A stretch of 64,000 bases of DNA. It comes from Allocoleopsis franciscana PCC 7113. Lineage in GTDB: Bacteria > Cyanobacteriota > Cyanobacteriia > Cyanobacteriales > Coleofasciculaceae. Where the stretch lies: the NCBI RefSeq assembly GCF_000317515.1, contig NC_019738.1, forward strand, positions 3,932,001 to 3,996,000, read 5' to 3'. A model generated the notes under the pieces. That model made no database searches. It was not told the DNA's origin and saw only the letters and a list, made by a program, of their open reading frames with translations. Numbering within the stretch: position 1 is the first letter of the stretch; each line of letters opens with the position of its first letter. Positions 15,137-57,529 of the stretch are shown in pieces. The position numbers and the translations under genes were made by a program.

Positions 15137-15244
15137 ATCAGCAAGTTAACTTCTTAATACGCTATATCTCTAGGCTTTGGGAGCTTATGCAACAAAAAAT
15201 TAGAACTAAGGGTTTTGTGGTGGGTTACGGTCGCAACAATTCAT

Positions 15245-15320
15245 TTCAAGCCATCCATGTGTGTTGTTAAGTTGTTTGCAGATGATCGCATCTAATTCAG
15301 CATGTACATAATCACCTGGT
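15245..15320 (-). pseudogene. Decayed fragment of a CHAT-domain gene
   Basis: About 49 bases at 15258-15306 match 10959-11007, within the CHAT gene to the left, at about 78% identity. Translated on the minus strand it gives HAELDAIICKQLNNTHG, matching PAELDAIVRKQPNDTKG of the intact CHAT domain. The surrounding bases do not continue the match far, so this is a relic of a lost or rearranged CHAT copy. It sits just before the peroxiredoxin-like gene. Confidence 0.6.
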
Positions 15321-15378
15321 AGATTCTTAAAAGAGATTATACTTTTTTTGATTCTCCCGTTTTTCAATCAACCATTTT

Positions 15379-16164: not shown

Positions 16165-16270
16165 TAGCACTTTCATTTAATGCTGCTACAGTTAGCTAAA
16201 AAACTTTAGTTTTTGCAACAAATTTCTCCTAAAATTCTTCAAAGAATCCTGTTGACATTGAAGTGTTTTG

Positions 16271-18202
16271 ATGCGTTTCAACTTAAGTTTTCTGGCGACT
16301 AGTTTTGCTTTGTTGAACTTATCCATTCCTAGTGCGTTGGCATTTACTGACATCCAAACTCATTGGGCGCAAGCGTGTATCAATCAGATGGCACCGCGAA
16401 AGCTGGTGAGTGGTTACCCGGATGGGACTTTTCGTCCTAATGCAACGATTACCCGTGCTGAGTTTGCGGTTTTGATGCTCAATGCTTTTCCTTATGCCCC
16501 CGAAAAGCGGGCTGGTACAACGTTTAAAGATGTGCCGACGAGTCACTGGGCGCATAAAGCGATTCAGGATGCTTACAAACGCGGGTTTTTTTCCGGTTAT
16601 CCCGGTGGGATGTTTCTTCCAAACCAAGCGATTCCCAGAGTGCAAGCGATTGGTGTTTTGGCAGGGGCAAAGAATTTGAGTTTTTCCGGCAATGCGGAGG
16701 GAACACTCAGGCAGTATTTTACCGATGCGGGGCAGATTCCGGATTATGCCAAAAATGCGATCGCCGCTGCCACCATTAATAGTCTTGTCGTCAACTATCC
16801 CAACGTCAAACAGCTCAAACCCAATCAAACTGCCACTCGTGGAGAAGTTGCATCGCTAATTTGTCGGGCGTTATTTATCTATGCGGTGCAGCCGCAGTAC
16901 ATTGCTGGGGTAGAAACTCGCCCCCAAGCGGTTCGGGCACTACCGGGAAAACTCGATACCGTTCCTACTTTTAACAGCAATAGTCCGGAATTGGTGAAAA
17001 CAGAAGGGATTTTGCTGTCAACTTTCCCACCCGAAGGAAAACAGGTACCCTCTGCCCATCTCAACTTCCCCTTTGAGGGACGATTTGATGTCTTTACTCA
17101 CCATATCGCTAGGGCGGAAACTCAGGCTGAAACGGGTGCTCTTTACCAGGGGGTGATTGTCCACAATCCCAGTGACAAACCCGTCACGGTGGAGGTTTTG
17201 CAAGCCGCTAGTTACCTTTCAACTCCAGAAGCGCCCTTTAAAGAGTTGCCCGATATGAAGGATAATGCCGATGGCAGCGTCTACTCTGGCCCTGGTAGTC
17301 GGACGATGGGTGATGTTCTACGAGGAGTGCGGCAGGGGATTTTTCCAGCGCAGTTGGTGATTGAGCCAGGACAAAGTCAGATATTAATGAATCAGCCGAT
17401 TACGATAGAACGGGCACCCGCTTCTAATGGTCGTTCTACGATGATGCGGTTGAGGAGTAATGGCGCGGTTTATGTGGCGAATTTAGCCAAGAGAGGTGTC
17501 CGCAATAGCAATGGAACCTACCGAGCACCGACGCTGAAGGAATGGCAAGGATTACTGGAAACTGGAGGTTTTGCAGGGCCGCGCGACCCGATTCCCACAC
17601 CTCTCGATCCCCCCAGAGAACCAACGGTATTTAGTCGTGTGGCGGGTGTTTCTGAGGGAGCGCAATGGCAGGTCGAGATTACAGATAGTCCGAATGGGGA
17701 ACATCTCAGCCTTCCTGAACCAGGGAAGGCGTTCTCCTACGTCGTGGGTACATTGCATTTGATTACTCTAGGCACGGGGCAAATCCAAAGTGCACGCATG
17801 TTAAAGCGCTATGAAGATACAGCTTATTTTGCCCACAGTAATTATGGGGTGGAATACAATCTCACATTGCCCCTCAAAAACACCACCAATCAACCTCAGA
17901 CGGTGACGGTATCCCTGCAAACGCCCTTAAAAGATGAGGGGGGGAAAGATTTACTGCTGTTCTTGAACCCACGAGTTGACCAGATTTTCTTTCGCGGTAC
18001 GGTGAAGGTAAGTTATGACGATGATGCGGGACAATTGCAGACGCGCTACGTCCATCTAATACAGCGACGAGGGCAACCTGGTGAACCCTTAATCACACTG
18101 AATTTATCACCTGGGACAAGTCGCGAAGTCCAGGTAAGCTTACTCTATCCTCCAGATTCCACACCACCGCAGGTTTTGACAGTGAAGACGTTGGATAGAT
18201 AG
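16271..18202 (+). CDS. SLH-domain protein with DUF3370
   Basis: About 643 aa. A signal peptide (LSFLATSFALLNLSIPSALA) is followed by three S-layer-homology domains at about residues 25-70, 85-140 and 150-195; the first contains GYPDGTFRPNATITRAEFA, the second the variant GYPGGMFLPNQAIPR. The remainder (about 210-640) resembles DUF3370, a domain known essentially from cyanobacteria. SLH domains bind secondary cell-wall polymers or peptidoglycan, so the protein is expected in the periplasm or at the outer membrane. ATG 16271 is chosen; the in-frame TTG just before adds one residue. Function of DUF3370 is unknown. Confidence 0.85.
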   Translation: MRFNLSFLATSFALLNLSIPSALAFTDIQTHWAQACINQMAPRKLVSGYPDGTFRPNATITRAEFAVLMLNAFPYAPEKRAGTTFKDVPTSHWAHKAIQDAYKRGFFSGYPGGMFLPNQAIPRVQAIGVLAGAKNLSFSGNAEGTLRQYFTDAGQIPDYAKNAIAAATINSLVVNYPNVKQLKPNQTATRGEVASLICRALFIYAVQPQYIAGVETRPQAVRALPGKLDTVPTFNSNSPELVKTEGILLSTFPPEGKQVPSAHLNFPFEGRFDVFTHHIARAETQAETGALYQGVIVHNPSDKPVTVEVLQAASYLSTPEAPFKELPDMKDNADGSVYSGPGSRTMGDVLRGVRQGIFPAQLVIEPGQSQILMNQPITIERAPASNGRSTMMRLRSNGAVYVANLAKRGVRNSNGTYRAPTLKEWQGLLETGGFAGPRDPIPTPLDPPREPTVFSRVAGVSEGAQWQVEITDSPNGEHLSLPEPGKAFSYVVGTLHLITLGTGQIQSARMLKRYEDTAYFAHSNYGVEYNLTLPLKNTTNQPQTVTVSLQTPLKDEGGKDLLLFLNPRVDQIFFRGTVKVSYDDDAGQLQTRYVHLIQRRGQPGEPLITLNLSPGTSREVQVSLLYPPDSTPPQVLTVKTLDR

Positions 18203-18438: not shown

Positions 18439-21048
18439 ATGCAACCTCGAACAATCACTATCACCGCTCTCATCACTCTATTGGCTGCTACTACCACCGG
18501 CATAACTCCTAATGTTTCACAGCCTTTTTCTGCACAAATAGCACTGGCTCAAGCCCCATTGACTCACAATCCAGAAGCCTACCGCTTAATAGAGCAAGGA
18601 AATCAACAGTATAAAATCAGTGAATTTCAAGCAGCTATACAGTCTTGGCAACAAGCATTAGCCATATATCAGAAGAGCGGTGAGCAGATCGGGGAAGGAA
18701 TTGCTCTAATTAATTTGGGTCATGCTTACTTTTCCGTAGGAGAATACCAAAAAGCCCTCGAATTCTATCAGCAATCCCTGGCCATTCAACAGCAACTGCG
18801 AGATTGTCCAGGAGAAGCGAATTCTCTCAACCATCTAGGTGAAGTTTACCGGGTCTTGGGGCAATATCAAAAAGCAATCGAGTTTTATCAGAAATCATTA
18901 GCACTCATCCGAGAGATAGGTCAGTCAGCGAACACCGATCACTATGCCCTACTCCAACAAGAAGCTACTTCGCTCAGCAATCTTGGTAATGCTTACCGGA
19001 ATCTAGGGCAATACCAGAAAGCGATCGAAGTTGGCGAGCAATCCTTGGCTTTGCTCAAAAAAATGAGTGAATTACCTAGCCGCGATTCCTTCGCTATACT
19101 CAAAGAAACAGTCAATTCACTCACTAATCTAGGTCATGTTTATTTTTATCTAGGTAACTATCAAAAGGCCGTCGAATGTTATAAGCAATCATTAGCAGTT
19201 GTTCGGGAAATAGGAGATCGTCAAGGGGAAGCAAACACCTTAGGAGGTTTGGGCAATATTTACTATTCCTCAGAGCAATATCAAAATGGGATGAAGATTT
19301 ATCAACAGTCCTTGGCTATTGCACGAGGAATTGGCGATCGCACAAGCGAAGGAATAGTTCTCAACAATATTGGTGCCCTACTCGCAACCAATAACCAGCC
19401 AGAACTAGCCATTATTTTCTACAAGCAATCGGTTAATGTTCGAGAAGCAATTCGCCGAGATATCCAAGGGTTGCCGAAAGAACAACAACAGTCTTATATA
19501 GAGACGATTGCCAATACCTATCGCTCTTTAGCTGACTTACTGCTCAAGCAAGATCGAGTCTTAGAAGCGCAACGAGTCTTAGATTTGCTCAAAGTGCAGG
19601 AGCTGGAGGACTATCTCCATGACGTGCGGGCTAGTGAAAATCTGAGTAATGGTATTGCCGATCGCGCCCCAGAACAGCAAATTAAAAAGGGCTATGAAGC
19701 AATTTTAAACCAAGCCATTGAACAGGGAAAAGAACTCTCGCAGTTGGAGAGCCTTCCTGTATCCAATAGAACAGAAGTCCAACAACAGCGTGTTATCGAA
19801 CTCAGGAAGAATCAAGAGCAAATTACCCAACAGTTTCAAGAATTTCTCAAGAGTTCTGAAGTTGCAGCACTGCTAATCCAGTTACGGCAAACCACCGTCG
19901 GAGAGGGCTTTGACTTAGATAAATACGCCACCAGTTTACAGGATAACCTCAAGCGACTCCAACAAGATGCCGTCATTCTCTATCCCTTCGTTCTAGAGGA
20001 TCGCTTGGAATTAGTATTAGTGACCTCTTACACTCCCCCAATCCGCCGAACTGTCGCTGTCAAACGCAAAGACCTCAATCGAGCTATTCTAGAATTCCGT
20101 GATGTTCTGAAAACTCCTAGCCGAGATGCCAAAGATTCTGCTCAGAAACTCTATAATTGGCTGATTAAACCCATTGCCAATGACTTAGCTCAAGCTAAAG
20201 CCAAAACTATTATCTACGCCCCTGACGGGCAACTGCGTTATATCCCCCTTGCCGCTCTCTATGATGGCAACCAGTGGCTTGTACAGCGCTTTGGTATCAA
20301 CAATATTACCGCCCTCAGCCTTACCGAATTCAATACGAAACCTCAAAGTAAGTTGCACATCTTTGCAGGTGCTTTTACCCAAGGCAATTACAGTATCCAA
20401 GTTGGCAGTCGGCAGTTCAATTTTCAGGGTCTCAAATATGCCGGGATAGAGATAGAAAATCTGGCGAAAATCGTTCCTAGTACGACACGATTGTTAGATC
20501 AGCAGTTCAGCCGAGATACTGTTCTTCAGATGAACGACTACTCCGTTGTCCATCTAGCCACTCATGCTGCGTTTGTCGAAGGTCAGCCAGAGCAGTCGTT
20601 TATTCTGTTTGGTGATGGCAAGTACGTCACTCTCCGAGATGTTGGAAGCTGGCGTTTACCCAATGTTGATTTAGTGGTACTTTCCGCTTGCGAAACGGGT
20701 TTAGGCGATAAGCTCGGCGATGGGAAAGAGGTTCTGGGATTTGGCTACCAGATGCAACGAGCGGGAGCGAGAGCCGCTATTGCTTCGCTATGGCAAGTGG
20801 ATGATGGCGGTACCCAAGCCATGATGGATGCCTTCTATGCCGCACTGGAAAATGGCAGTACCACTAAAGCCAAAGCTTTACGACAAGCTCAAATCGCCCT
20901 GATTACTGGGGATTACAAAGCCTTGGGACAACAACGGGGGCTGGAAGTACAGCAGGGCACCAGAAGTCGTTTATCGCCTACGGTAAATAGTCGCCTCAGC
21001 CATCCTTACTACTGGGCACCATTCATTCTGATCGGTAACGGGTTGTAA
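18439..21048 (+). CDS. Exported TPR-CHAT caspase-like protease (869 aa)
   Basis: Signal peptide at residues 1-38 (ITALITLLAATTTGI, then ALAQA). Seven or eight TPR motifs follow (about 50-345), for example YQKALEFYQQSLAIQQQL, then a helical linker rich in Gln/Glu. The CHAT domain covers about residues 510-869, with His709 in HLATHAAF and Cys751 in LSACETGL, and the closing SHPYYWAPFILIGNGL. It is about half the size of the TPR-CHAT protein to its left and less similar to it than the broken copy is. GGGAGG at 18424-18429 lies 9 bases before the ATG. Both dyad residues are present, so proteolytic activity is plausible. Substrate unknown. Confidence 0.9.
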   Translation: MQPRTITITALITLLAATTTGITPNVSQPFSAQIALAQAPLTHNPEAYRLIEQGNQQYKISEFQAAIQSWQQALAIYQKSGEQIGEGIALINLGHAYFSVGEYQKALEFYQQSLAIQQQLRDCPGEANSLNHLGEVYRVLGQYQKAIEFYQKSLALIREIGQSANTDHYALLQQEATSLSNLGNAYRNLGQYQKAIEVGEQSLALLKKMSELPSRDSFAILKETVNSLTNLGHVYFYLGNYQKAVECYKQSLAVVREIGDRQGEANTLGGLGNIYYSSEQYQNGMKIYQQSLAIARGIGDRTSEGIVLNNIGALLATNNQPELAIIFYKQSVNVREAIRRDIQGLPKEQQQSYIETIANTYRSLADLLLKQDRVLEAQRVLDLLKVQELEDYLHDVRASENLSNGIADRAPEQQIKKGYEAILNQAIEQGKELSQLESLPVSNRTEVQQQRVIELRKNQEQITQQFQEFLKSSEVAALLIQLRQTTVGEGFDLDKYATSLQDNLKRLQQDAVILYPFVLEDRLELVLVTSYTPPIRRTVAVKRKDLNRAILEFRDVLKTPSRDAKDSAQKLYNWLIKPIANDLAQAKAKTIIYAPDGQLRYIPLAALYDGNQWLVQRFGINNITALSLTEFNTKPQSKLHIFAGAFTQGNYSIQVGSRQFNFQGLKYAGIEIENLAKIVPSTTRLLDQQFSRDTVLQMNDYSVVHLATHAAFVEGQPEQSFILFGDGKYVTLRDVGSWRLPNVDLVVLSACETGLGDKLGDGKEVLGFGYQMQRAGARAAIASLWQVDDGGTQAMMDAFYAALENGSTTKAKALRQAQIALITGDYKALGQQRGLEVQQGTRSRLSPTVNSRLSHPYYWAPFILIGNGL

Positions 21049-22789: not shown

Positions 22790-25700
22790 TTACAAACCAT
22801 TGCCAATTAGAATGAAGGGTGCCCAGTAGTAGGGGTGAGACAAATTGGAACTGCTGCTATTATCGGCGCTAGTCTCTACCTCTGGTTTAGCGACAACTTC
22901 AAGACCTCGTTGTGGGGCATCTTTAGCAGTAAGTTTACCTTGCAATAGGCTTAGTTGTGCTTGACGCAAGGCTTCGGCTTTGGTCATTGGTTTTTCAGAT
23001 GTTCCAGTAGCTAAATTCTTGTAAAATTGCTGCATCAATAGACTAGTGCTGCCATCGTTCACAAGCCATAGGGATGCCATTACTGCCTTCGCTGCATTGT
23101 TCATAAAGTAGTAAGCAAGGGCGTTAATTTCTACACCGTCTTGTTGAGAACCACCAAGCGCTGTTTGACAGGCTGATAGCACGACGAGATGAATGTCACT
23201 TAATCCTGTCAAGGCACTAATCATATCTGGAGTCAGGGGTATGCCAGTTCCTAGCAGAATGTAAGATTTATTTGAGCTAGTTGGGTCAAATACACCGTGA
23301 GTCGCAAGGTGCAGAATTTTGTGTCCTTTGAGATTGTCTCGCAGGGTGCGAAAGTCAAAGGTGCGGTTTAGGTACTTTTCTCCTGGATAAATTCCTTGAG
23401 TATCGTTGGTTTGCGATCGCACAATACCATCTAATTCAATGGGTACATTAAGTAAAGGATCAAAACCAGGAACACGATCAGATAGTCCCATTGCCAGAAC
23501 TGAGGTATTTTGAGTACCGATGGGTAATTTATCCTTCGTGTCTGCTAAGGCTGCGGAAGGTGCGATCGCAATGGTATAGTTCTCCATCAGATATTGTTTC
23601 CCATCAAACAGGGCACTCATGGGCATATAGCGCGTTACCCTATCCAGGGCAAAAACCAGATGTTTGACGGAGTTTGCCTTGAGTTCGCCTTCGATGGGTT
23701 GAATCAGCCAGTTGTAGAGTTTTTGACTGACGGCTTGCGCTTTGGGAATATCCGCAGAACCGCAAGTACGCTTCTCGCACTCTTCCATTAGCTTGCGAAA
23801 CTCTAAAACGGTGTTTCCTAATTCCTCTCGGCTGACGGGAACTTTAACGGTTTTGATCACATCCCCTGTGGCATAAAGCTGTAACTGTAGCTCTTTTTCT
23901 AGCACCAAGGGGTAAATCATCACCGTGTTGGGTTGAGCGTTGACAATTTCTCTAATTTTCCCGAAGTTCTGAGGGTCAAAGAAGATATCATCTTTTTGAC
24001 GGTTTTCACGAATTTCTTTGTCTATTTTCTGTAATTCCTGAACATTTGCCGTAATCAGAGCTGTTTGTTGGTCTTTGAGTTGGCTGCATTGTTGACTGTT
24101 TGTCTGTTCGCACTCGCTGATCTGTCGTCCCAATGCTACGATTGACTGATTAGGAGCGGGAATTTTGGCTTCAGTTGGAGTTAGGGGAATTTGGGGTTTG
24201 TCGCCTGTTCTATTGCCAGCACTGATGAAATCACGTATTTCTTGCCCTCTTAATAGTTCCTGTACATACAGTGCTTCTTTGTCTCTTCCTTGGGAGAGCA
24301 ACAACTCTGCTAACTGGCGATAAATATCAGATACTTTCACTTGGTCAAAATCAACGGTTGCTTCCAGGAATGATTTCTGTAACTCTGGTGGTAATCCTTG
24401 GATATTGCGCCGGACTTCTTCTATTTGGTTAACAGATTGTTTGTAGTAGTTGATGGCAATATTGGGTTGATTTAAGTCGCGGTAAATGCGAGCTAAACCA
24501 TACAAGCTGTAAGCTTTACCACCCGCTACTTCTGTCGGAGTAGAAATGGCTAATGCGGCTTGATAGGCGGCTATGGCTTGCTCGTTCCGTCCAAATTTGC
24601 GATGTAATTGCCCTAATAGATTGAGTGCTTGTTTTTCCCAGGTGGGATTTTGGGTTTTTCGGGTGAAGGCTAAAAAGGCTTGTGCTGACTCCATCGCTTT
24701 GGCATCATTTCCTAATGCAGCGTAGCCAACACTCAACATCCTAGTGGCGAATACTTCCATCCCAGGAACTTTAATTTCCTGGAATATAGTTAATGCTTGT
24801 TGGGCGAATTCTATAGTTTGTTGCGGTTCTGCAAGGCTAGCGAGATTTAATAAAGCATTACCTTCACCTTGGCGGTTTTTGAGTTGCCGCATGGTGGTGA
24901 GTGCTTGTTGGTAAAACTCATTGCTTTTCTGGTAATTTCCCAAGTTCCTGTAGATATGACCGAGATTAAATTGTGGTATCGATTGAAGGGATGGACTCTT
25001 AAGTTCTGTGGCTATTTTCAAACTTTGCTGATTCAACTCTAGGGCTTTTTGAAAGTCGTTGCTATTGTTGTAAAGATTACCCAGATAAGATAACGCCTGA
25101 GCTTCCAAACCAGGATTTTTTAACTCTCTTGCAATTACTAAACTTTGCTCGATGAACTCTTTACCTTTGGTGTAGTTGCCAACAACTTGGTAAGCATCGC
25201 CTAAATTCATTAGCAACCTTGCTTCCCTTTCGCGGTTTTTGTATTTTCTTGCAGATACTAAGCCTGGTTCAGCGACGGAAATTACTTTTTGATAGTCTCC
25301 TAGTTTCTGATAGGCATCACTGAGAGACTCCGCAGCGTGGGCTTCACCTAGGAAGCTTCTGAGTTTTTGAGCAATAGCCAAGCTTTGTTGTCCTACTTCG
25401 ATCCCCTGCTCATATTTTCCCTGTGCATTGTAGGCTTGACTAAGAGTTGCCAAAGCTTGTCCTTCAAAATAGGGATTTTGCTGTTGTCGAAACTTTGCCA
25501 AAGCTTGGTTTGCCACTTCAATTGCTTTTTGCGTGTCTCCTACATTCTGATAACTGTGGCTCAAATACTGTAAAGCCAAGCCATCATCTTTTTTTGTCTG
25601 CTGTAGCAGTGCCAAGCTTTGTTGTGCTAACTCCAGGGCTTTTTGATAGTTACCTTGGTTATCATAAATATCCTGGAGTTCACCCAAAGTACGCTGTTCA

Positions 25701-27649
25701 ATATCGGTATTTCCTAGTCGTCTAGCAATTTGTAAAGCTTGGTGTGCTAACTCTATCGCCTGGGGATGCTTGCCCTGTTTAGTGTAGGATTGACTGAGTT
25801 GTTGTAACGCATCTGCTTCTGTTTTTGGGTCTTTGATTTGCCGTGCAATACTTAAGGCTTGCTGAGTTGATTCTATAGCGTTGGGCAAATCCCGCATATC
25901 TGTATAGAGTTCGCCTAAATTAATTAACGCCTCTGCCTCTAAATTTGGTTTTTTGAGTGTTTGCACGTATGTTAAACTTTGCTTAGCAAAATCAAGGGCT
26001 TTGTCAAATTCCCCAAGACTCCTGTAACCCAAACTCAATCCCTGTAGGGTACCAGGCAGGATTTTCAAATTACTCTCTTGTAGGCTGGGATCTAATAGAG
26101 AAAAATTGATTTACCGCGCCTTGGCTAAAGCTTGCTGGTATAGTTCAATCCCTTTTTCGTATTCTCCCAACTCAGTATAGATACTGGCAAGAACGTTTAA
26201 AGAAGATGCCTCACTCAAAGGATCTTTTTGTTCCCGTGCGATTTCTATTTTTCGCTGGCTTAACTCAATGATCTGTCTGTCCTTCCCTTGATCACGGTAA
26301 ATTGATGAAAGAAGAGATAAGGCTGTTGTTTCTGTCTGTAATTCTTTAATTTGGCGAGCAATCTTCAACGATTGTTGTAAGAATTCAGTTGCTTTGTTGT
26401 AGTCTCCCAATATGTAGTAGACTCTTCCTAACTTCTGTAAAACAAATGCTTCCTTATCTGGCTGTTTGAGTTCTCGCGCCATCTGTAAAACGTCCTGCGC
26501 CAATTTAATATCATGAGGTGCTTCGGCTCTAGCTTGAGAATAGAATCCTTTGCTATACAAATCAGATGCTTTAGAACCAAACACCATGATCATTGTCAGG
26601 GTACCCAGTTGGGAACTGCTGTCTTTGATTTCCCGTTGAATTGCCAATGATTGCTGGAGAAACTCTACCGCACGTTCTTTGTCGCCTTTTATCCCGTAAG
26701 TGGTACTTATCAGATTCAGTACTCTATATTCGAGGAAGCGATTACCTACCTCTCGACTTGCTGCTAACGATTTCTTAGACCACTCCAAAGTGCGAGGATA
26801 GTCTTGCAAATCGTCATAAGTTACTGCTATCGAGAAAAGTGTATAACCAGCTTGAAATTTATCTCCTACTTCTTGCTGAATTGCCAAGGTTTGGTTGTAT
26901 ATTTCTAGGGCTTTAGGATTTTGTTTTAAATTAGAGTAAGTCACCCCTATCTTTCTCAGAGTCCTGCCTTCCCCTGCCCTATCTTTTACTTCGCGACTAA
27001 TAGCTAAGGCTTGCTGGAAAGTTTCCAAGGCTTTGTCATATTGGCTTTTTAAGAGGTAAACTGAGCCAAGGTTATCGAGTGTTTCTCCTTCCCCTTTTCG
27101 GTCTTTCAGTTCCCGCCGAATTGCCAAAGCTTGCTGCAAGACTTCCGAGGCTTTGTCAGCTTGCGATAAACCGAGGTAAACCTCGCCCATATTGTTAAGG
27201 GTTTGCCCAATTCCGGCTTTGTCATTCAGTTGTTGGCGTATTTCTAGTACTCATTGATAGGTAGCGAGTGCTTTTGGGTAGTACCCTTGGCGATACTGCT
27301 GCACTCCCTCTTGGAATAGCTTATCTACCTCGGTTTGGCGATTTTGAGTGGTGGGTGTTTGTGCTGAGACAGAGAGTAGGGGCACCATCGGTGTCAACTT
27401 AAGCCCTGGCGAATGGAATTCGCGGCTATAAAAACGAAGTCCGCCTGCGTGGACTAACGGAAAAACTAGAGTTTTGAAACCTGCGTAGGCAGGTTTTGTT
27501 TGTATAGCTGCGGTTTCAACCGCCCAGCTAACGTTAAGTTGACACCAATGGATATGTCGTGCCCCTACAGAACTAGGGAATAGGGAAGGAGTCAGGGAAA
27601 GCAGCAATGTTGTCGTAAAAAAGCTGATGGACTTGAGAGGGGGGTGCAT
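22790..27649 (-). pseudogene. TPR-CHAT protease gene broken by two in-frame stop codons
   Basis: One reading frame runs for about 1620 codons, close to the 1596-aa intact relative, but two stop codons cut it: TGA at 27251-27253 and TAA at 26111-26113. No frameshift is needed to join the three parts (27251-27649, 26111-27250, 22790-26110). Part one holds the signal peptide and first TPR, part two about nine TPRs, part three the remaining TPRs and an intact-looking CHAT domain (HLATHGVF and LSACQTAL, ending SHPYYWAPFILIGNGL). By comparison with neighbours, TAA probably replaced a Glu codon (AR-stop-IN against AREIN). The signal-peptide region also carries an inverted-repeat element. The third part could be translated from TTG 26068, but would lack a signal peptide. 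Sequencing error is possible yet two separate errors are less likely. Confidence 0.8.
27377..27567. repeat. MITE-like inverted-repeat element nested in a palindrome
   Basis: Inner element: 18-bp ends at 27385-27402 and 27534-27551 with one mismatch, containing a perfect 13-bp pair (GGTGTCAACTTAA and its inverse). Outer arms: TAGGGGCAC at 27377-27385 and its inverse GTGCCCCTA at 27559-27567. Inside are short perfect hairpins, such as AACCTGC-GTAG-GCAGGTT. There is no open frame for a transposase. It lies in the signal-peptide region of the broken CHAT gene and adds about 60 codons without shifting frame. Confidence 0.7.
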
Positions 27650-48863: not shown

Positions 48864-49418
48864 TCACAATCGGGGCAGTGGCGGCAGGCGTCCGAGTACC
48901 TTGCTAATGTCCTGAATAACCTCAGCAAGGCGTTCACCCTCGACATGAACCTCTGGCGTTGGGTAGTTTTGCAGTGTTTCGATTAAGGTAATATTGCCAT
49001 CCGGCAAAGCCGAACTTACCAAAGCTCCTCGTAAAGACTCCCGGTTAGCTCGATTAGTGGGAGTATGAATCACCTGACTGACTTGATCGAGCATTACTTG
49101 TCCTACGGGAGTTCTGAGGACTTGATACAGGAAAGTCGGGTTAACTTTAACCTCTTGCGTCAAAGTGCGCCGCAACTCGGCGGGTTCTTTTTTGGCAAGC
49201 TTGAGATAAGCTCGCAGCGATCTAGAAAGTTCCCCTGTTTTAACGAACGTTGTCAGTTCAGGCACCGATACTCTCTCTCGCAAAAAACGGTATTTCAGCA
49301 CTGCCCATTCAGCCGCTTCTGCGCGATCGCTCCAGAAGCAAACACACAGGAGTCCGACGAACCCAACAATCCAACCCCGTAAACAAAAGTAACTATTTCT
49401 TTTGTTTTGTTTTGGCAC
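48864..49418 (-). CDS. Exported DUF1400 protein
   Basis: A 184-aa protein. The signal peptide (IVGFVGLLCVCFWSDRAEAAE) is followed by a DUF1400 domain (LKYRFLRERVSVPELTTFVKTGELS). In other cyanobacterial proteins this domain precedes an alpha/beta-hydrolase domain; here it stands alone, and no hydrolase domain follows in any frame. It may be a binding partner of an exported hydrolase encoded elsewhere. It is the last gene of the minus-strand block with DUF928, the CHASE2-cyclase and the TPS-CHAT protein, though a 235-bp gap separates it from DUF928. Confidence 0.75.
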   Translation of the reverse strand: MPKQNKRNSYFCLRGWIVGFVGLLCVCFWSDRAEAAEWAVLKYRFLRERVSVPELTTFVKTGELSRSLRAYLKLAKKEPAELRRTLTQEVKVNPTFLYQVLRTPVGQVMLDQVSQVIHTPTNRANRESLRGALVSSALPDGNITLIETLQNYPTPEVHVEGERLAEVIQDISKVLGRLPPLPRL

Positions 49419-49653
49419 ATTTCACCTCCGCTATCGGTAATCATCTCATCCTGTCGGCTCTTCTAGGGTCGATAACATTTTTGGACTCAGCATCGGTATA
49501 AGGATAGAAACGCCTATCAGAGTCAAATTGTACTACCCAATTTGAATTTTTTTGTGATCACCTTTTCCTAGTCCGCATTTCGCATTCTTAGCACCTCCTA
49601 AGGCCGCAGAGCTACTACAGCCTCGTGAGGACATTGCGATCGCACTCCAATCT

Positions 49654-50388
49654 TTAAGGCTTCTCGCCCCTTAAACTCCCCATGAGAGGCTGGGAAGCAA
49701 TTTTGTCCAATCCCTCCGACCTTAACAAGTTTTCCCACGCAGCCGCGAGCGCAGAATCATCCGGATTCAAGCGGCGTTTCTCAGCCAAGGTTGCCACACT
49801 GTCGTACCACAGATTATTCTGACCACCGCGAGAGACTCGTTGAACCCATCCATCTACATAAATATCCCCACTCCCTAGCTGTGGACAAGTGATTTGAAAG
49901 TACCAATGATAGTTTTTTCCCACTACTAGGGGTGGCAAAGATTTGTCGTCAGGAAGGCGAAGATCAAAAATACCAGAGATGCGAGAACTTGGAAACGTTT
50001 TCTCATAAACCTTATTGTCATCTTCCTGAAGAAGAGTAAACTTCACCGCTGTTGCGGACATTTGAGGAATATAGAAAAAGAATTTGGGATAGGCGGCAAT
50101 CGTGAATCCCAGATTGGTTTCTGGACTCAATGCTGTCAGTGGCAAGTTGGGTACATTAGCCCCACAACCCCGTCCAGCCGCAGGTTCTCTCCTGCCAGGG
50201 AGCGGTCGTCGTTCATCCTTTAAACGCAGCGTGAACCAAGCAGGAGATTGCCTGTTCCCCGATTGCCCTTGAACTTGTAAATTTGAAGGCTGGGCAATAA
50301 CTTGTAGGGGCACAACAGACAAAAACAAACCAACAAAAAAAGCGATACAGAACGTGATAAGAGTCGTGCGAGACTTTGTCCAAAACAT
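49654..50388 (-). CDS. Exported DUF928 protein
   Basis: A 244-aa protein. A signal peptide (LITFCIAFFVGLFLSVVPLQVIAQ) is followed by a DUF928 domain: GRGCGANVPNLPLTALSPETN, then GFTIAAYPKFFFYIPQM and KNYHWYFQITCPQ. The fold and role of DUF928 are not known to me. DUF928 genes are frequent neighbours of CHAT and CHASE2 genes in cyanobacteria (recollection). It starts only 35 bp after the cyclase stop on the same strand, so co-transcription is likely. Confidence 0.8.
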   Translation of the reverse strand: MFWTKSRTTLITFCIAFFVGLFLSVVPLQVIAQPSNLQVQGQSGNRQSPAWFTLRLKDERRPLPGRREPAAGRGCGANVPNLPLTALSPETNLGFTIAAYPKFFFYIPQMSATAVKFTLLQEDDNKVYEKTFPSSRISGIFDLRLPDDKSLPPLVVGKNYHWYFQITCPQLGSGDIYVDGWVQRVSRGGQNNLWYDSVATLAEKRRLNPDDSALAAAWENLLRSEGLDKIASQPLMGSLRGEKP

Positions 50389-50422
50389 AATAGGTTACCT
50401 CCGAACACTGATGAAGTGACTT

Positions 50423-52444
50423 TCAAGCATTACGACCCAGCACCCGGTAAACATCAACCTTGTGCTTTTTTCCCTTCAATTGCAGTGCACCCCAAGCTTC
50501 CACCTGAAACTCATCCTGGAGATAAACCAGAGTTTCGTGAGCAATCAAGATTCGACAGTCGCTCGGTTGACTGTCTTTTTTACAACTTTCCAAACGAGAG
50601 GCAATATTGACACTGTCCCCAATCACCCCATACTCCAAACGTTCCTTGCCGCCTAAACTACCGACCATGACAGGGCCGGTATAAATTCCCACCCGCATTT
50701 GAACCAACGGCAAACCTCGATTGCGCCAATTCCGGTTGAGTTCTTGCAAGCGATCGCCCATCGCCAGAGCACAAGCTACACCCCGTCGAGCATCTTCTGC
50801 CACAACGGCCTCGGTTGTAGCGGGTACAGGCACCCCAAACACCGCTAACAGACCATCGCCAGTGAACTTGTTGATAATTCCACGGTAGTTTTGCACTTCC
50901 CGCACCATGATGGGCAAATATTCATTCAACCAAGCCATCACCTCTTCTGGCGGCATTTGTTCCGAGATGGTGCTAAATCCTTTGATGTCAGTCAGTAATA
51001 TCGTCGCGATCACTCGTTGACCGGGTAGCAGACCTGAATCCAGCAAACGGTCATGCTCATTCCAAAGCGCTTGGGCAATTTCCGGTGAAGTTTGCTGTCC
51101 TAAGAGCTTCATCACCATCTGTTCTTGGCGTTGGAAACGTTGCCGTTGGTAAGTCTCCACCGCCAAACCCGTGACAATTAATCCGATCGTCGGTGCCGCT
51201 AAGGGTATCCATCCCGACTGCATCAACAGCGATAGGGTAATACCAAACAACAAACTCAGACAGCCTAGACCACTCAACCCCAGGATCAGCAGATTCTGAA
51301 TTCGTACCACCAAAATGCCCCCCACCAAAGACCAAGCGACAATCCACAAGAGTTCTTCCTGTTCAGACCAATACCAAAACAAGGGACGACGATCCAAAAC
51401 AGCACTCAAAATTTGGCTCACCATCTGGGAGTGAAGCAGAACCCCCGCCATCCGAGGAATGGCTTTTTCTCTGGCGCTGTAGGGGGTAGAGAACAAATCT
51501 TTTGCCGTTGGAGCGGTTGCGCCAATGAGTACAATCTTGCCTCTCACCCAGTTTGGGTCAATCTGCCCATTTAAAACCTGTGTAAAGTTAACGCTGCGTG
51601 CGACATTTCGAGGTGAACGATAATTCAACAGAATTTGATAGCCACCATCATCAATATTTTGATAACCACCGGAATTGAAAGCCAACCAGTTAAATACCGT
51701 TGTACCTAATTGAAGTTCCTCGGTTTTGGTAAATTGAGGGTTAATCCCTTTGTGTTTAAGATAAGCGAGGGCGACACGGAGGGAAAACGAGTAGAGGGTC
51801 GTTTGTTCATCAATCGGAGCGACCATAAAATTGCGACGAACCACGTTATCGGGGTCAACCACAACATCACTGAAACCTACCCGTTCCTGGGATACTCCGG
51901 GTGGGGGGATAACCGCCTCGGCTTCGGTGTTGCCAATATTGGCGATCGCAATCACCTTGGGACTTTGGAATCGAGCTATCAACTCAGCCTGACCTGTCCC
52001 TTGTGGCACATTACGAGCCAAATCCACACCGATGACCATGGGTTGATGCCGCTCCAATTCTCCCAAGACCTTGGCTAACAGCCCGTCGGAGATAGGATAT
52101 TGATTCAGAACTTGGATATCTCGCTCTGTAATCTCCACCACTAGCAAGCGCGGATCGGGGCCTTCATCCGGGCGCAGGCGAACCATGAGATCGAAAGCCG
52201 CTAATTCCAAAGGCTGTAGCCAGCCTAACTGCCGTAATCCCAGGAACAAGCCAAACGCAGCAAGGCTGGTGATAACTAAGTCAAGATTCTTTGACGTAAC
52301 GCTCTTTTTCCAAAAACTATTAAAAACCTGAGCAAATTGAGAAATTAAGGAATGATTTTTATAATTCATTTCAGTTGCACCAATCTGGGGAAATGCGTCC
52401 TCGCTTAGATTCATGTGTAATTTTGTGAGCGAATCGGGACGCAT
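50423..52444 (-). CDS. CHASE2-domain adenylate cyclase (class III)
   Basis: A 673-aa membrane receptor cyclase. After an N-terminal membrane segment (about 57-73) comes an extracellular CHASE2 sensor domain (about 75-350), three membrane segments (about 365-450) and a cytoplasmic class III cyclase domain (about 481-673). Metal-binding Asp486 (TDIKGF) and Asp530 (GDGLLAVFG) are intact, as are Lys526 and Asp610 that favour ATP over GTP, and Asn613/Arg617 of the transition-state set. It should therefore make cAMP in response to an unknown periplasmic ligand. An upstream start at 52444 is used; M26 at 52369 is an alternative. A TPS-CHAT gene starts its 3' end 58 bp upstream. Confidence 0.9.
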   Translation of the reverse strand: MRPDSLTKLHMNLSEDAFPQIGATEMNYKNHSLISQFAQVFNSFWKKSVTSKNLDLVITSLAAFGLFLGLRQLGWLQPLELAAFDLMVRLRPDEGPDPRLLVVEITERDIQVLNQYPISDGLLAKVLGELERHQPMVIGVDLARNVPQGTGQAELIARFQSPKVIAIANIGNTEAEAVIPPPGVSQERVGFSDVVVDPDNVVRRNFMVAPIDEQTTLYSFSLRVALAYLKHKGINPQFTKTEELQLGTTVFNWLAFNSGGYQNIDDGGYQILLNYRSPRNVARSVNFTQVLNGQIDPNWVRGKIVLIGATAPTAKDLFSTPYSAREKAIPRMAGVLLHSQMVSQILSAVLDRRPLFWYWSEQEELLWIVAWSLVGGILVVRIQNLLILGLSGLGCLSLLFGITLSLLMQSGWIPLAAPTIGLIVTGLAVETYQRQRFQRQEQMVMKLLGQQTSPEIAQALWNEHDRLLDSGLLPGQRVIATILLTDIKGFSTISEQMPPEEVMAWLNEYLPIMVREVQNYRGIINKFTGDGLLAVFGVPVPATTEAVVAEDARRGVACALAMGDRLQELNRNWRNRGLPLVQMRVGIYTGPVMVGSLGGKERLEYGVIGDSVNIASRLESCKKDSQPSDCRILIAHETLVYLQDEFQVEAWGALQLKGKKHKVDVYRVLGRNA

Positions 52445-52501
52445 TAAATCCGAGGCTTGTCAGTTAATAATTTCAATCATTAAAAAAACCATCTAAGCTC
52501 C

Positions 52502-55500
52502 TTACCAAGGATTGCCAATCAGCGTAAATGCCGCCCAAAATTTGGGATGAGACAGCGTTTGATTTCCCAGTTTGGCTAGTTCTGGTGGTAAAGGAAGTGT
52601 CTGACTTGGAGTTATTAATTGACCATCCTCCAGCTTGATTTCTCCCTTGAGCATGGCTACCTGTGCCCGTCGCAATGCCTCCGCCTTAATCGGGGCTTCT
52701 TGCAATTGCTCATAAAACTCCGTCATCAGTGCCATGGTTCCTTCATCGCTGATAAAGGATAAGCTTGCCAGGGCTGACTTAACGCCAGCTTGGACGGCTA
52801 AGCCAGCAAAACCCAACTCCACCTCTTCATTGCCCTGGGCCGTTTTACAAGCACTCAGCACTAACAACTCCACGGCTGGATCATTCCAGCCCAATTGCTG
52901 GAGTTGGTTCAGGCGTAGCTTAGTGTCCGATAACTGGATATAGGAGTTGCTCGGTTCCCCCGGTTGAAAAAAGGCATGGGTGGCAAGGTGGACAATGCCA
53001 AACGGTTTTTGGCGGCGTTGCGCCTTCAGATTCGTCAGCGTAAATTCTTTATTGAGGAAGGATTGACCTTTCCATAACGATGTAATTTGAGACAACTCTA
53101 CAGGGACAGCAGGTAAAGGAGCTTGGTTGCTAAATTTTGAGGCTCCCATGGCTAAGACTTGGCTGTCTTTGATGTCTTGGTAGCGGGTATCCGTTAAGCT
53201 AAGGCTCGGCATTAGGGCTACGCTATATTTTTCTACCAGAAAGCCTTGACCATCATGAAGGGCGCTCATAGGGATGGAACGTAGCCCGGAATCCATCACA
53301 AAGACAAGGTTCTGGATATTTTGGGCTTTTAAATCAGCCTCTAACGGAGCAACCAACCACTGGTACATATTTTGGGCAGGAGGAAGGTACTCCGAAGAAC
53401 GACTGGTGATGTCGGTGAGTTCACTGCGTAATTGCTCTGCTACCTTAAGCACTGAGGCGCGTGTTGTTCCAACCACCCGCTTACGAATGGCTTTGCCCTC
53501 TGGGGTAACCAAGATTAATTCTAAGTGGTCACTATCTTGGCGTGGTCTATCCAATTCATGGAGATGGAGTCCCAGATTAGGGGAGGATTGATCACTCCCA
53601 GTTGCCGAAGCCGCCAAGGTTGAGGGAACGAAAACCGCATAAATGATGGCGGGCTTAACCCGCGTGGCACTTTCGATCCGGCGTAGACTATTTTGAGCAT
53701 CTGCCAAGGTGATGCTTTTTCTTTGGCTCAGGCTGAGATATTTTTTAAATTCATTGGTGAATAGCTGATCGACAGTCGCCACAGAGTCATTCAGCTCAAC
53801 AGACAGGGGCGGTGGTGGTGCTGATGTGAGTAAGGGGGGTGATGCATAAGGTAGTGTCGGTTGTGAGGTGGCTTGCGGTGAGGGTTGTGTCGGAGGAGTA
53901 GGCGAGGGTTGTGCCGGAGGAGTTGGGGGGGGTGATGGCACACTAATAACGCTAATGTTGACACCATTGGTATAGGTGTAAGGCAAGGATTGGAAGGGCA
54001 AGATTGACGGGCCTCCAGCACTCACAATCGCGCCCCCTGTACCGTTCTTGCTGGCATCTCCAACATCAAAAGGAGTAATACCCTGGCCTCCATGACGGAT
54101 GGTGATAGAGCCACCTCCAGCCCCGCCAGCGCTACAAATACTGGTGTTGAGACAATTGCCTAAGCTGAAAATCCCCGTCGCACGGAAAAATTGCTCGGTG
54201 GTGATGTCAATATTTCCCCCTCTACCGTTGGCTCCACCTTGGGCGTTAATTGAGGTGACTTGGATATCACCCGGTGGATCGAGGAGAACATTGCCTCCAT
54301 CGCCATTACTCGAACTGGTGTCAATCTGTCCTGTGGTAATGCTCTCACCGGATTGAACAGTAAGGCTTCCACCCCCTGCCACGCCGGAAGCATTCAAGTC
54401 TTTACTAATAATGGCTCCTGGATTGGTAAGTGAAATATCACCACCCCTGCCTAAAGTTGAGCTGGAATTGAGATTAGATGTGGTCAACTTGCCATTATTT
54501 GCACTCAGAGCGATCGCTCCTCCATTCCCATTGCTCGAACTAGAGTTGATATTCCCTGTGGTGTTGTCTGTGCCTGACTCAACGGTAATTTTGCCACCCC
54601 CTGTCGCGCCGGAAGCATTTAAATCTCCACTAAGAATCGATCCTTGATTACTCAGGAGTGAAATATCACCACCCCTGCCTAAAGTTGAGCTGGAATTGAG
54701 ATTAGATGTGGTCAACTTGCCATTATTTGCACTCAGAGCGATCGCTCCTCCATTCCCATTACTCGAATTAGAGTTAATATTTCCTGTGGTGTTATCTGTG
54801 CCTGACTTAACAGTAATGTTTCCACCTCCTGTCGCGCCGGCAGCATTCAAGTCTCCACTAGTAATGGCTCCTGAATTGGTGAGTGAAATATCGCCACCCC
54901 TACCAGAAGTTGAGCTGGAATTCAGGTTAGAGAGGGTTAGCTGAGTATTATTGGCTGTGAGAGCGATCGCTCCTCCATTGCCATTCGTATTGCTGGAGTC
55001 TAGGAGGGCGGTGTTCAGGCTTGTTCCCGTTAGGGTAATCGCTCCTCCAGCCGTCTTTAAGTCGCCCAACAGCGTGATCGCGCCCGTACTAGTGAAGTTG
55101 ACATTCCCACCTAAAGTGGACAAAGCCGAATTCACATTAATCTGACTTGGAGCTGTTATATCCCCAATTACAATGTCGCCTCCCCTGGGCAATGTGGTGG
55201 AAATCGCTCCGTTGAGGTTGACAATGTCAGGCGTATTGATTTTGAACAAAGGATTAATCCCTGAGCCAGAATTGGGACTCAAGGTAACTGCACCGGTGGT
55301 AATCGCCTGATTCGCCGTGAGGAAGATGTTGCTTCCCGCTAAGGTGCCACCCGTGGTGTCGATGATGCCTGAACTGAGTATGGTAATATCACCGGTTCCA
55401 GAGGAACGCAACTCAGCACCATTACGAAGCTGCACGTCCGTCCCAACCAGTTGCAAGCTACCGTTATCAGCACTCAAAATCACGTCATCGAGGAGAATTT

Positions 55501-57529
55501 TCCCTGTGCCATTGGGGGTATTGAGCTTGATATTGCCGCCACTGGCACTTTCAAAGTTCGCACCCGTCAGTTCGATATCGTTACTGGTGAGCCTGATTTC
55601 TCCAGTGCCGGAACTCAGTCGGGCACCGTTGAGATTGAGGCTGGTTGCCGGAGTCGTTGACGGGTTGCTGCTACCGCCGAGGATGATATCGCCACCGTTA
55701 GAGTTAATGGGAGCGTTATTACTGATGGTAATTGCCCCTGCGCCAAGAAAAATATCACCTCCATTGGAATTGATGGGAGCACCGAGGATAGCGATCGCTC
55801 CTGCACTGAGGCTGATATCGCCACCGTTGGAGTCAATCAGAGCGTTGTTATTGATGGTAATTGCTCCTGCACCATTCCCACCTTGACCCGCGCTAAGATT
55901 AACATCCAACCTTCCCGTACCTGTGGCGGCTAAAGTTGAACCCGAATTAACAATAATATTGTTATTGGCTAATAAATTTAGTTCTCGATTCGCCGCGCCA
56001 GCGTAAATAATATTGGCACCGGAATTGATCGTGATATTGTTATCGGCAAGCAGTGTCAGAGAGAAACCATTCTCCCAATTGATGGGATTATTAACAGTAA
56101 TATTTCCCGCCCCACCCCCATCCGATGCCGTGGAAACGGTGACATTGCCAAACATGAGTTGATTGACGAGGGTGGCAGTACTGATATTGGAGGGAGGATT
56201 ATCGGTATCGCCGATAATGATATCTGTAGGGTCTAACAACAACGTCCCCGCCGCACCCGCCGGTGCTAACAAGTCAGCCAGACCTTTAAATTCTAGAGAT
56301 TGCTTGCCGGAAACCTCAGCAAACCCTCCATCTCCAGAGTTTAATCCGCCGCGAGCACTGATTTTGCCCAAGAATCGATTGGACTTATCTGCCCAGGCAA
56401 TCACTCGTCCACCCTTGCCCTGAGACAAGGCATCAGCCTTGATATTCGTATCCGCACTGACAAACGTGTCAGAGGCATTGGGTATTGTCCCCTTACCCTG
56501 ATAATCGCCGCCAATTCGTACATTACCGCCGCCATCGGTGCCAGAGGCGTCTAGATTGGCACTCAGAAGTTGAACTTGGTCGCCCAAAACATTGATATTG
56601 CCACCCACTCCCCCTTGGTTGGGGGGGGTGGATACATCCAGTGTGCCAGAGGCGATCGCTGTACCCGCCTCAGAGGGAATCTCTATACCAGAAGCCGTTA
56701 ATTCGACCTGACCATTACCATTAACAGTTAAGCCTGTTGCCTGAGTTCCCCCCTCACCCGTGAGCAATTCCGGCAGTGATAAGACCGGAATTGTCCCACC
56801 TCCAGCTTCGCTTGGATCAACCTCCAAACTCAAGAGATTCCCCGGTTGGCTGATGCGTACCAATTTTTGACCCGGTACCGCCGCCATTGTGATCGTTCCC
56901 TGAGGTGCTTCCAACTGCCCGGTATTCACCACTGTGCCACCTAAGAGGGTAAGATTCTGACCCTTGGCAACCGCCAACTGTCCCGCATTAACAATAACTC
57001 CTGGTTGAGATGGGTTGTTAAAAGCAAATGTATTGGGGCTACCCACTAAGGCCGCATAATCATTGTTACCGATGGCATTAAACCAATTATTGTTAAACCC
57101 AATCCCTGTAGCCGTAGTGGCAGTGAAGGAAGCGGGGACATTCAGGCGGGCATCCGCACCAAAAATCATGCCTGCTGGGTTCATCAGGTACAGATTAGCG
57201 TTCCCACCTGTCACTTGAATCAGTCCATTAATAATTGAGGCATCTCCACCCGTAACCCGCCCCAAAATATTCTGAATGGTTGGATTAGCAAGAAAATTGG
57301 CTGTCTCCCCGGAATTGAGACCCAATTTTTGAAAGCTGTGGAATAGGTTCGCCCCATCTCCTGAAAGTGTGCCGCCGCTAATATCAAGCTGGTTACCATT
57401 GGGCGTTACTATCGTTCCGGTCGTTTGATCAGAAACAATGGACTGAGCAAAAATGGGTGTGATGCCAACAAATCCCGTGAGCAACAGGGTGGTTAACGCG
57501 GTGCTTGTGAGTGAAAGAGATGCTTGCAT
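52502..57529 (-). CDS. TPS-type haemagglutinin-like exoprotein with C-terminal CHAT protease domain
   Basis: About 1675 aa from ATG 57529, with a signal peptide (LTTLLLTGFVGITPIFAQS). The filamentous-haemagglutinin N-domain (two-partner secretion domain) covers about residues 30-155, with NLFHSFQKLGL and NPAGMIFG (117-124). A long Gly/Asn/Ser-rich stretch (to about 1220) looks like a right-handed beta-helix, with a 76-aa repeat in three copies. A proline-rich linker follows, then a CHAT domain (about 1340-1675) with catalytic His1518 (HLATHAFF) and Cys1561 (LSACKTAQ). No TpsB outer-membrane pore is in the window. The architecture puts a caspase-fold protease on a secreted beta-helix. The gene converges on no neighbour; the cyclase follows 57 bp after. 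Confidence 0.88.
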   Translation of the reverse strand: MQASLSLTSTALTTLLLTGFVGITPIFAQSIVSDQTTGTIVTPNGNQLDISGGTLSGDGANLFHSFQKLGLNSGETANFLANPTIQNILGRVTGGDASIINGLIQVTGGNANLYLMNPAGMIFGADARLNVPASFTATTATGIGFNNNWFNAIGNNDYAALVGSPNTFAFNNPSQPGVIVNAGQLAVAKGQNLTLLGGTVVNTGQLEAPQGTITMAAVPGQKLVRISQPGNLLSLEVDPSEAGGGTIPVLSLPELLTGEGGTQATGLTVNGNGQVELTASGIEIPSEAGTAIASGTLDVSTPPNQGGVGGNINVLGDQVQLLSANLDASGTDGGGNVRIGGDYQGKGTIPNASDTFVSADTNIKADALSQGKGGRVIAWADKSNRFLGKISARGGLNSGDGGFAEVSGKQSLEFKGLADLLAPAGAAGTLLLDPTDIIIGDTDNPPSNISTATLVNQLMFGNVTVSTASDGGGAGNITVNNPINWENGFSLTLLADNNITINSGANIIYAGAANRELNLLANNNIIVNSGSTLAATGTGRLDVNLSAGQGGNGAGAITINNNALIDSNGGDISLSAGAIAILGAPINSNGGDIFLGAGAITISNNAPINSNGGDIILGGSSNPSTTPATSLNLNGARLSSGTGEIRLTSNDIELTGANFESASGGNIKLNTPNGTGKILLDDVILSADNGSLQLVGTDVQLRNGAELRSSGTGDITILSSGIIDTTGGTLAGSNIFLTANQAITTGAVTLSPNSGSGINPLFKINTPDIVNLNGAISTTLPRGGDIVIGDITAPSQINVNSALSTLGGNVNFTSTGAITLLGDLKTAGGAITLTGTSLNTALLDSSNTNGNGGAIALTANNTQLTLSNLNSSSTSGRGGDISLTNSGAITSGDLNAAGATGGGNITVKSGTDNTTGNINSNSSNGNGGAIALSANNGKLTTSNLNSSSTLGRGGDISLLSNQGSILSGDLNASGATGGGKITVESGTDNTTGNINSSSSNGNGGAIALSANNGKLTTSNLNSSSTLGRGGDISLTNPGAIISKDLNASGVAGGGSLTVQSGESITTGQIDTSSSNGDGGNVLLDPPGDIQVTSINAQGGANGRGGNIDITTEQFFRATGIFSLGNCLNTSICSAGGAGGGSITIRHGGQGITPFDVGDASKNGTGGAIVSAGGPSILPFQSLPYTYTNGVNISVISVPSPPPTPPAQPSPTPPTQPSPQATSQPTLPYASPPLLTSAPPPPLSVELNDSVATVDQLFTNEFKKYLSLSQRKSITLADAQNSLRRIESATRVKPAIIYAVFVPSTLAASATGSDQSSPNLGLHLHELDRPRQDSDHLELILVTPEGKAIRKRVVGTTRASVLKVAEQLRSELTDITSRSSEYLPPAQNMYQWLVAPLEADLKAQNIQNLVFVMDSGLRSIPMSALHDGQGFLVEKYSVALMPSLSLTDTRYQDIKDSQVLAMGASKFSNQAPLPAVPVELSQITSLWKGQSFLNKEFTLTNLKAQRRQKPFGIVHLATHAFFQPGEPSNSYIQLSDTKLRLNQLQQLGWNDPAVELLVLSACKTAQGNEEVELGFAGLAVQAGVKSALASLSFISDEGTMALMTEFYEQLQEAPIKAEALRRAQVAMLKGEIKLEDGQLITPSQTLPLPPELAKLGNQTLSHPKFWAAFTLIGNPW
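54431..55010. repeat. 228-bp repeats in the TPS-CHAT gene
   Basis: The stretch TGAAATATC(A/G)CCACCCCT begins at 54431, 54659 and 54884, spacing 228 and 225 bp. Each unit encodes 75-76 residues of beta-helix with the SSNGNGGAIAL core. The first two units are nearly identical. Confidence 0.8.

Follow-up and report, generated by a model that had tools for sequence, protein, structure and literature searches.

DUF928 proteins as candidate partners of CHASE2 receptors in cyanobacteria: a locus of Allocoleopsis franciscana PCC 7113

Introduction

CHASE2, present in 256 of 292 sampled cyanobacterial genomes, ranks with the most frequent extracytoplasmic sensor domains of cyanobacteria, and its ligand is given as unknown in recent papers on receptors with an output of nucleotide-cyclase type (PMC10581220, PMC13075795). 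CHASE2 orthocaspases have been reported (PMC2853523, PMC7475262), and caspase-CHASE2 proteins accompanied by genes for an extracytoplasmic function (ECF) sigma factor and DUF1822 are interpreted as cell-death systems (PMC8195603). In Nostoc punctiforme, genes for WD40 proteins, a CHASE2 sensor and DUF928 have been described as one cluster (PMC5587647). Here we describe a related locus in Allocoleopsis franciscana PCC 7113. It lies in a stretch of 64,000 nucleotides, hereafter the window (G000:C1:3932001-3996000, within an 8.0-Mb genome; positions below are counted from its first letter), whose minus strand carries four open reading frames (ORFs): a protein joining a two-partner secretion (TPS) domain to a CHAT caspase-fold domain, a CHASE2-cyclase, a DUF928 protein and a DUF1400 protein.

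An earlier note on this DNA had suggested that all four genes form one module, in which cyclic AMP (cAMP) signalling would be coupled to protease action. The ORFs and their domain assignments are confirmed, with Pfam scores far above the curated cut-offs, and the TPS-CHAT, CHASE2 and DUF928 genes do belong together; DUF1400 does not, as it stays with infB. The best explanation, which we consider to have about an even chance of being correct, is a three-gene envelope-sensing module with DUF928 acting on CHASE2. Adjacency of DUF928 and CHASE2 genes proves to be general, with varied output domains and with TPS/CHAT neighbours, and reaches beyond the one reported cluster. In the literature, covered partially and therefore weak as negative evidence, we found no statement of a general DUF928-CHASE2 pairing or of output swapping, no combination of CHASE2 with CHAT or of TPS with CHAT, and no mention of DUF928 beyond the N. 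punctiforme cluster (PMC5587647).

Pairing of DUF928 with CHASE2

Neighbourhoods were compared in two sets. The first comprises the window and 72 further DUF928-bearing stretches, from 49 cyanobacterial genomes with 78 distinct DUF928 genes in all, in which neighbours were marked by profiles built from the data; as a collection of best-scoring DUF928 matches, it may lean toward typical members. The second comprises 80 organism-named records found by motif, which lean to Nostoc-type cyclase loci and partly overlap the first set. A CHASE2 gene stands immediately beside DUF928 in 51 of the 78 cases and within two genes in 57, and the partners are co-oriented in 49 of these 57 pairs (binomial p 3e-8); in the second set, CHASE2 is a neighbour of DUF928 in 66/80 records. 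Of the 15 DUF928 genes in the A. franciscana genome, 12 have one of its 16 CHASE2 genes at a distance of at most 6 kb, whereas a rotation test gave a mean of 0.36 and a maximum of 4 in 20,000 rotations (p 5e-5). A functional pairing of the two proteins is thus quite probable in our judgment.

Presence across genomes points the same way, as all 82 genomes with DUF928, among the 292 of the phylum, encode CHASE2 (hypergeometric 3e-6), although lineage and genome size are confounding factors in this comparison. Several observations weigh against the pairing, or against its extension to TPS-CHAT. CHASE2 is not dependent on DUF928, being present in 174 of the 210 genomes that are devoid of it. Conversely, 21 of the 78 DUF928 genes have no CHASE2 gene within two genes, and a subset of them stands beside a protein with FHA and cyclic-nucleotide-binding domains instead. 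As to TPS-CHAT, its gap to the CHASE2 gene is 57 nt in the window, but G292, a genome of the same genus (locus L110), has about 350 nt there; the closest CHASE2-cyclase/DUF928 pairs in other genomes (62-64% identity; L111, L113-L115) have no TPS-CHAT on the DNA examined; and eight of the nine TPS-CHAT fusions of A. franciscana are far from any CHASE2 gene. Finally, distances among the DUF928 and CHASE2 paralogs of A. franciscana correlate with r 0.65, which falls to 0.15 once close duplicates are removed.

Co-variation was also calculated over all 128 pairs, where r is 0.85, a value confounded by descent; in the comparison within A. franciscana, one CHASE2 is counted twice. It was dropped as support for the pairing on account of this confounding and of the fall to 0.15.

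A competing explanation is that DUF928, CHASE2 and TPS/CHAT merely share a surface or multicellularity regulon, with neither protein contact nor signal transfer. Both gene orders occur, eight of the 57 DUF928-CHASE2 pairs are on opposite strands, and every one of these families is abundant in A. franciscana (15 DUF928, 16 CHASE2, about 33 TPS and about 46 exported-type CHAT genes), all of which speaks for such a co-regulation. The link between DUF928 and CHASE2, immediate neighbours in 51 of 78 cases, is nevertheless far tighter than the links to CHAT or TPS, and CHASE2 stays on as the partner where the output differs (see below). We regard co-regulation alone as unlikely, albeit the strongest of the competing explanations.

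In the window, the DUF928 gene (49654..50388, minus strand; PF06051 E 2e-47, 161.6 bits vs a gathering score of 26) encodes a protein of 244 aa of exported type. A signal peptide, recognized by inspection, is followed in the predicted AlphaFold structure (mean pLDDT 79.5, and >90 for most of residues 81-240) by an immunoglobulin (Ig)/FN3-like beta-sandwich and then a C-terminal helical hairpin. A sequence search against solved structures gave no significant match, and the predicted fold matches only generic Ig/FN3-like sandwiches, the best being 8wae_B (Z 7.3, root-mean-square deviation 3.4 over 103 residues) and 4z29_A. Because these matches are generic, and too weak for a family name, DUF928 is best described as a putative binding-type domain.

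The alternative context of DUF928 has its own gene order: DUF928 is followed first by a protein of about 1100 aa, which combines FHA and cyclic-nucleotide-binding domains, and next by an FHA protein with an FAD/NAD/2Fe-2S oxidoreductase part (L202:11015-14350 and 14520-16271). Similar arrangements are seen in L203, L204, L206, L207, L212 and L214.

Exchangeable Outputs of the CHASE2 Receptor

The CHASE2 proteins that adjoin DUF928 carry very different output domains: a class III cyclase, a histidine kinase with or without a receiver, GGDEF-EAL, CHAT at the N-terminus, or TIR in three copies. Among the 57 pairs, the output is CHAT in 22, a cyclase in 21, a histidine kinase in five, GGDEF-EAL in three and a triple TIR in one, and five have no recognized output; the copy in the window is the adenylate-cyclase version, with a TPS-CHAT fusion in addition. 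As the output varies while DUF928 and CHASE2 stay together, DUF928 tracks the CHASE2 sensor and not one particular output. This is the main reason for preferring a sensor partner to the coupling of cAMP and proteolysis put forward in the earlier note, which is not specific: the constant partner is DUF928, and cyclase and CHAT are both exchangeable.

The CHASE2-adenylate cyclase of the window (50423..52444, minus strand, 673 aa, by ORF and Pfam; AlphaFold model with mean pLDDT 82.4) is a CHASE2 receptor whose active site is complete and of the adenylate type, in line with the name given to this sensor cyclase in the earlier note. In the predicted topology, one transmembrane helix precedes an extracytoplasmic CHASE2 domain (51314..52255, residues 64-377 by Pfam; PF05226 E 6e-70), which is followed by three transmembrane helices and a cytosolic cyclase, so that CHASE2 lies between transmembrane helices and the output is cytosolic, which is the layout of a CHASE2 receptor. 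An alignment of 97 homologs places in the class III cyclase domain (50444..51004, residues 481-667; PF00211, Guanylate_cyc, E 2e-22) the metal-binding pair D486 and D530, the adenine-specifying K526 and D610, and the transition-state residues N613 and R617. The fold matches of the receptor model, a list that is filled by the cyclase part and has the CHASE2 part outside it, include CyaB (3r5g, Z 27.6) and CyaC (1wc1, Z 27.1), and the titles of PDB entries on Ma1120 “KDA to EGY” mutants and on the guanylyl cyclase Cya2 agree with reading K526/D610 as specific for adenine. Predicted adenylate cyclase activity is thereby well supported by the active-site residues. Peptide patterns derived from this single protein were too strict and, applied to the genome collection, gave no confirmed relatives.

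The same signature is not universal in the family. K/D is found in 43 of the homologous proteins, that of the window included, and E/S or similar in most others; about half of the CHASE2-cyclases adjoining DUF928 have Glu (or Asp) and Ser, Asn or His at the positions of K526 and D610 (for example L062:4235-6544, L015:4418-6664 and L016:7243-9480), and are closer to guanylyl cyclase Cya2. With so many signatures of the E/S type, a good share of these proteins are probably not adenylate cyclases, and they may make cyclic GMP or something else.

A receptor combined with CHAT or TIR brings to mind cell death or conflict, in which CHASE2 would trigger suicide or defence by way of a CHAT caspase, TIR or a cyclic nucleotide. 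Proposals of this kind exist for EACC2-caspase-CHASE2 proteins that occur together with ECF sigma and DUF1822 (PMC8195603) and for CHASE2 orthocaspases (PMC7475262); CHASE2 proteins with N-terminal CHAT or with three TIR domains do adjoin DUF928, often with DUF1822 upstream, and the TIR part has matches among the TIRs of Thoeris and of other defence systems. The copy in the window, however, has a cyclase output, and DUF1822, a sigma gene, a cytosolic caspase and TIR are all missing from it, while at other loci the output is in many cases an ordinary signalling domain (cyclase, histidine kinase, GGDEF-EAL). Its cyclase does match the PycC models of Pycsar, but the matches span the generic cyclase fold only, and an effector gene (TIR, PycTIR or PycTM) is not adjacent at the locus. 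A cell-death or conflict system is therefore improbable.

The triple-TIR receptor belongs to A. franciscana itself: it is encoded at L018:10677-13877, beside DUF928 and TPS/CHAT genes, and its TIR part resembles Thoeris-type defence TIRs.

TPS and CHAT Genes Around the Pair

Secreted proteins of the TPS and CHAT families are frequent further neighbours. TPS and/or exported-type CHAT genes occur within three genes of the DUF928-CHASE2 pair at 25 of the 57 loci, in 19 genomes, and rotation of the A. franciscana genome gave p 5e-5 for CHAT and p 7.5e-4 for TPS within 6 kb of DUF928. In A. franciscana, CHASE2, DUF928 and secreted TPS/CHAT genes thus co-locate far more often than chance would allow, and the association recurs in many other genomes, in line with the grouping of these genes in the earlier note. 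The arrangements differ: in Oscillatoria (L196/L197), DUF928 overlaps TPS-CHAT by 26 bp, after which come a CHASE2-kinase and a hybrid kinase, while in L190 the order is TPS, CHAT, DUF928, CHASE2-cyclase, DUF928 and TPS. At a paralogous locus in L121/L123, a TPS and CHAT gene pair sits between a CHASE2-cyclase gene and a universal-stress-protein gene (a family assigned by eye); in the relatives L118 and L129-L131 the same two genes are separated by a short gap only, with no TPS and CHAT between them, and we read the pair as a separate insertion.

Those close contacts could instead mean that DUF928 serves TPS/CHAT secretion, as a periplasmic chaperone, an anchor or a protease substrate, and that CHASE2 merely reports on secretion. 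The overlap in Oscillatoria, a spacing of 6 nt in L074, the presence of TPS proteins in 80 of the 82 DUF928 genomes and the strong association of DUF928 and TPS presence within the class would all suit this explanation; genome size and lineage confound that association, though, and no more than 17 of the 78 DUF928 genes have TPS up to three genes away, compared with 57 of 78 for CHASE2 within two. We think a secretion role improbable, marginally less so than cell death.

The TPS-CHAT gene of the window (52502..57529, minus strand, 1675 aa, by ORF and Pfam) begins in the mechanical ORF at TTG 57565, while ATG 57529 opens a good signal peptide, judged by inspection. Behind this peptide come the TPS secretion domain (56828..57439, residues 31-234; PF05860 E 1e-41, TIGR01901 4e-21), placed N-terminally as in a TpsA protein, haemagglutinin-type repeats, a Pro-rich linker and a C-terminal CHAT domain (52511..53383, residues 1383-1673; PF12770 E 2e-72). 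The N-terminal part, repeats included, matches EtpA structures (8vba/8cpk). The His/Cys dyad of the caspase fold is intact, with His1518 in an LATHA motif (52976..52978) and Cys1561 in an LSACK motif (52847..52849), both positions taken from the translation; the secreted caspase-fold protease of the earlier note therefore persists as a prediction.

No TpsB/ShlB gene is found near TPS-CHAT, and the nearest of the six POTRA_2 genes of the genome is about 410 kb away. These six stand against about 33 TPS-domain and about 46 exported-type CHAT genes, so that the majority of the TpsA-like proteins of A. franciscana have no adjoining transporter gene. The repeat region of TPS-CHAT differs in copy number between the window and L110, two genomes of the same genus, and one 100-aa block is 22% identical vs about 90% elsewhere.

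Some 25 kb off in the same window, three TPR-CHAT genes and one caspase-like gene (C14-type by eye) make up another concentration of caspase-fold proteins, at 2930-5341, 10346-15136, 18439-21048 and 22790-26068.

Extent of the Unit

From TPS-CHAT toward DUF1400, successive genes are separated by 57, 34 and 235 nt; the first spacing agrees with the earlier note, and the second had been given there as 35 bp. The neighbours of the locus are SpoIID, a gene of 445 aa with no Pfam hit, DUF1400 itself, a gene of 218 aa and infB. The DUF1400 protein (48864..49418, minus strand, 184 aa, exported type; PF07176 E 8e-40) consists of the DUF1400 domain alone, lacking the hydrolase part implied by the Pfam name. 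In six genomes from the wider order (L142-L146, L148), orthologs of similar length adjoin the same gene of 200-250 aa and infB, on DNA where CHASE2, DUF928 and TPS-CHAT are all absent. Because the ortholog stays with infB where the other three genes are missing, DUF1400 was rejected as a member of the module: it is an ancestral infB neighbour and a bystander to the trio. The CHASE2-cyclase/DUF928 pairs of 62-64% identity mentioned above lie on different contigs.

That all four genes form one pathway coupling cAMP synthesis to proteolysis has in its favour their common orientation and the conservation of their order in L110, with protein identities of 85-93% (TPS-CHAT 0.91, CHASE2-cyclase 0.93, DUF928 0.85, DUF1400 0.90) and with the same CHASE2-DUF928 gap of 34 nt. 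The three genes occur together in other genomes as well, but the exact four-gene block is found only in this one, and a search of the plasmid collection gave weak fragments only. Since DUF1400 belongs to the infB neighbourhood, the cyclase is replaceable by other outputs and most TPS-CHAT fusions of A. franciscana are far from CHASE2, we consider a four-gene unit very improbable. The remaining three genes may be transcribed jointly; transcript limits are not readable from the sequence, because promoter and terminator consensus matches in the region are no commoner than in shuffled sequence.

Proposed Mechanism

In the three-gene module envisaged here, DUF928 would reach the periplasm by export, and its Ig/FN3-like binding domain would there act on the extracytoplasmic CHASE2 domain as a ligand, a co-receptor or a load-dependent inhibitor. 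CHASE2 would relay this state through the membrane to the fused output, which in the window would make cAMP from ATP. The secreted TPS-CHAT would be a surface accessory, either the thing monitored or an effector under the control of the module; if it is monitored, its export or proteolysis may change the occupancy of DUF928 or CHASE2. Direct contact between DUF928 and CHASE2 as the mechanism is, in our estimate, slightly short of an even chance, and any specific role of TPS-CHAT in the module is doubtful.

More broadly, we tentatively suggest, with the balance leaning against it, that cyanobacterial CHASE2 receptors have their long-missing cognate partners in the DUF928 proteins: exported Ig-like proteins that set the activity of a receptor with interchangeable readouts (cAMP, c-di-GMP, phosphorelay, CHAT protease and TIR), with TPS/CHAT proteins monitored or deployed outside. 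A conserved exported protein with a predicted binding-type fold is a concrete candidate partner for CHASE2, and because several outputs of second-messenger and cell-death type share this pairing, an answer obtained for one output could extend to others.

Comparison with Known Systems

The EACC2-caspase systems (PMC8195603) resemble the CHAT-CHASE2 loci in combining a CHAT-type/caspase fold, CHASE2 and a DUF1822 neighbourhood, but DUF928 is not named in the accessible part of that article. The CHASE2 protein of the window differs from them in that its cyclase is C-terminal and a domain at the N-terminus is lacking, and genes for ECF sigma and DUF1822 were not found among the neighbours of the locus. 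With two-partner secretion proteins (TpsA/FhaB, EtpA), the TPS-CHAT protein shares the N-terminal TPS domain and a repeat stalk, as well as the structural match to EtpA, whereas it ends in CHAT and has no TpsB gene nearby. Both the catalytic fold and the catalytic residues of the cyclase are like those of CyaC (1wc1) and guanylate cyclase Cya2 (2w01); the difference is its coupling to a CHASE2 sensor and, unlike Cya2, the adenylate-type specificity residues K526/D610.

The N. punctiforme cluster (PMC5587647) has the CHASE2 sensor and DUF928 side by side as in the window, though as one of seven species considered there and with an interpretation via WD40 proteins. The CHASE2 one-component receptors Dgc2 of Leptolyngbya (PMC10581220) and All1219 of Anabaena (PMC13075795) are alike in having an extracytoplasmic CHASE2 domain and a cytosolic output of nucleotide-cyclase type. 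In contrast to these receptors, for which no exported partner is described in the accessible text of the sources, the receptor of the window has an adjacent DUF928 gene and a class III output of adenylate type.

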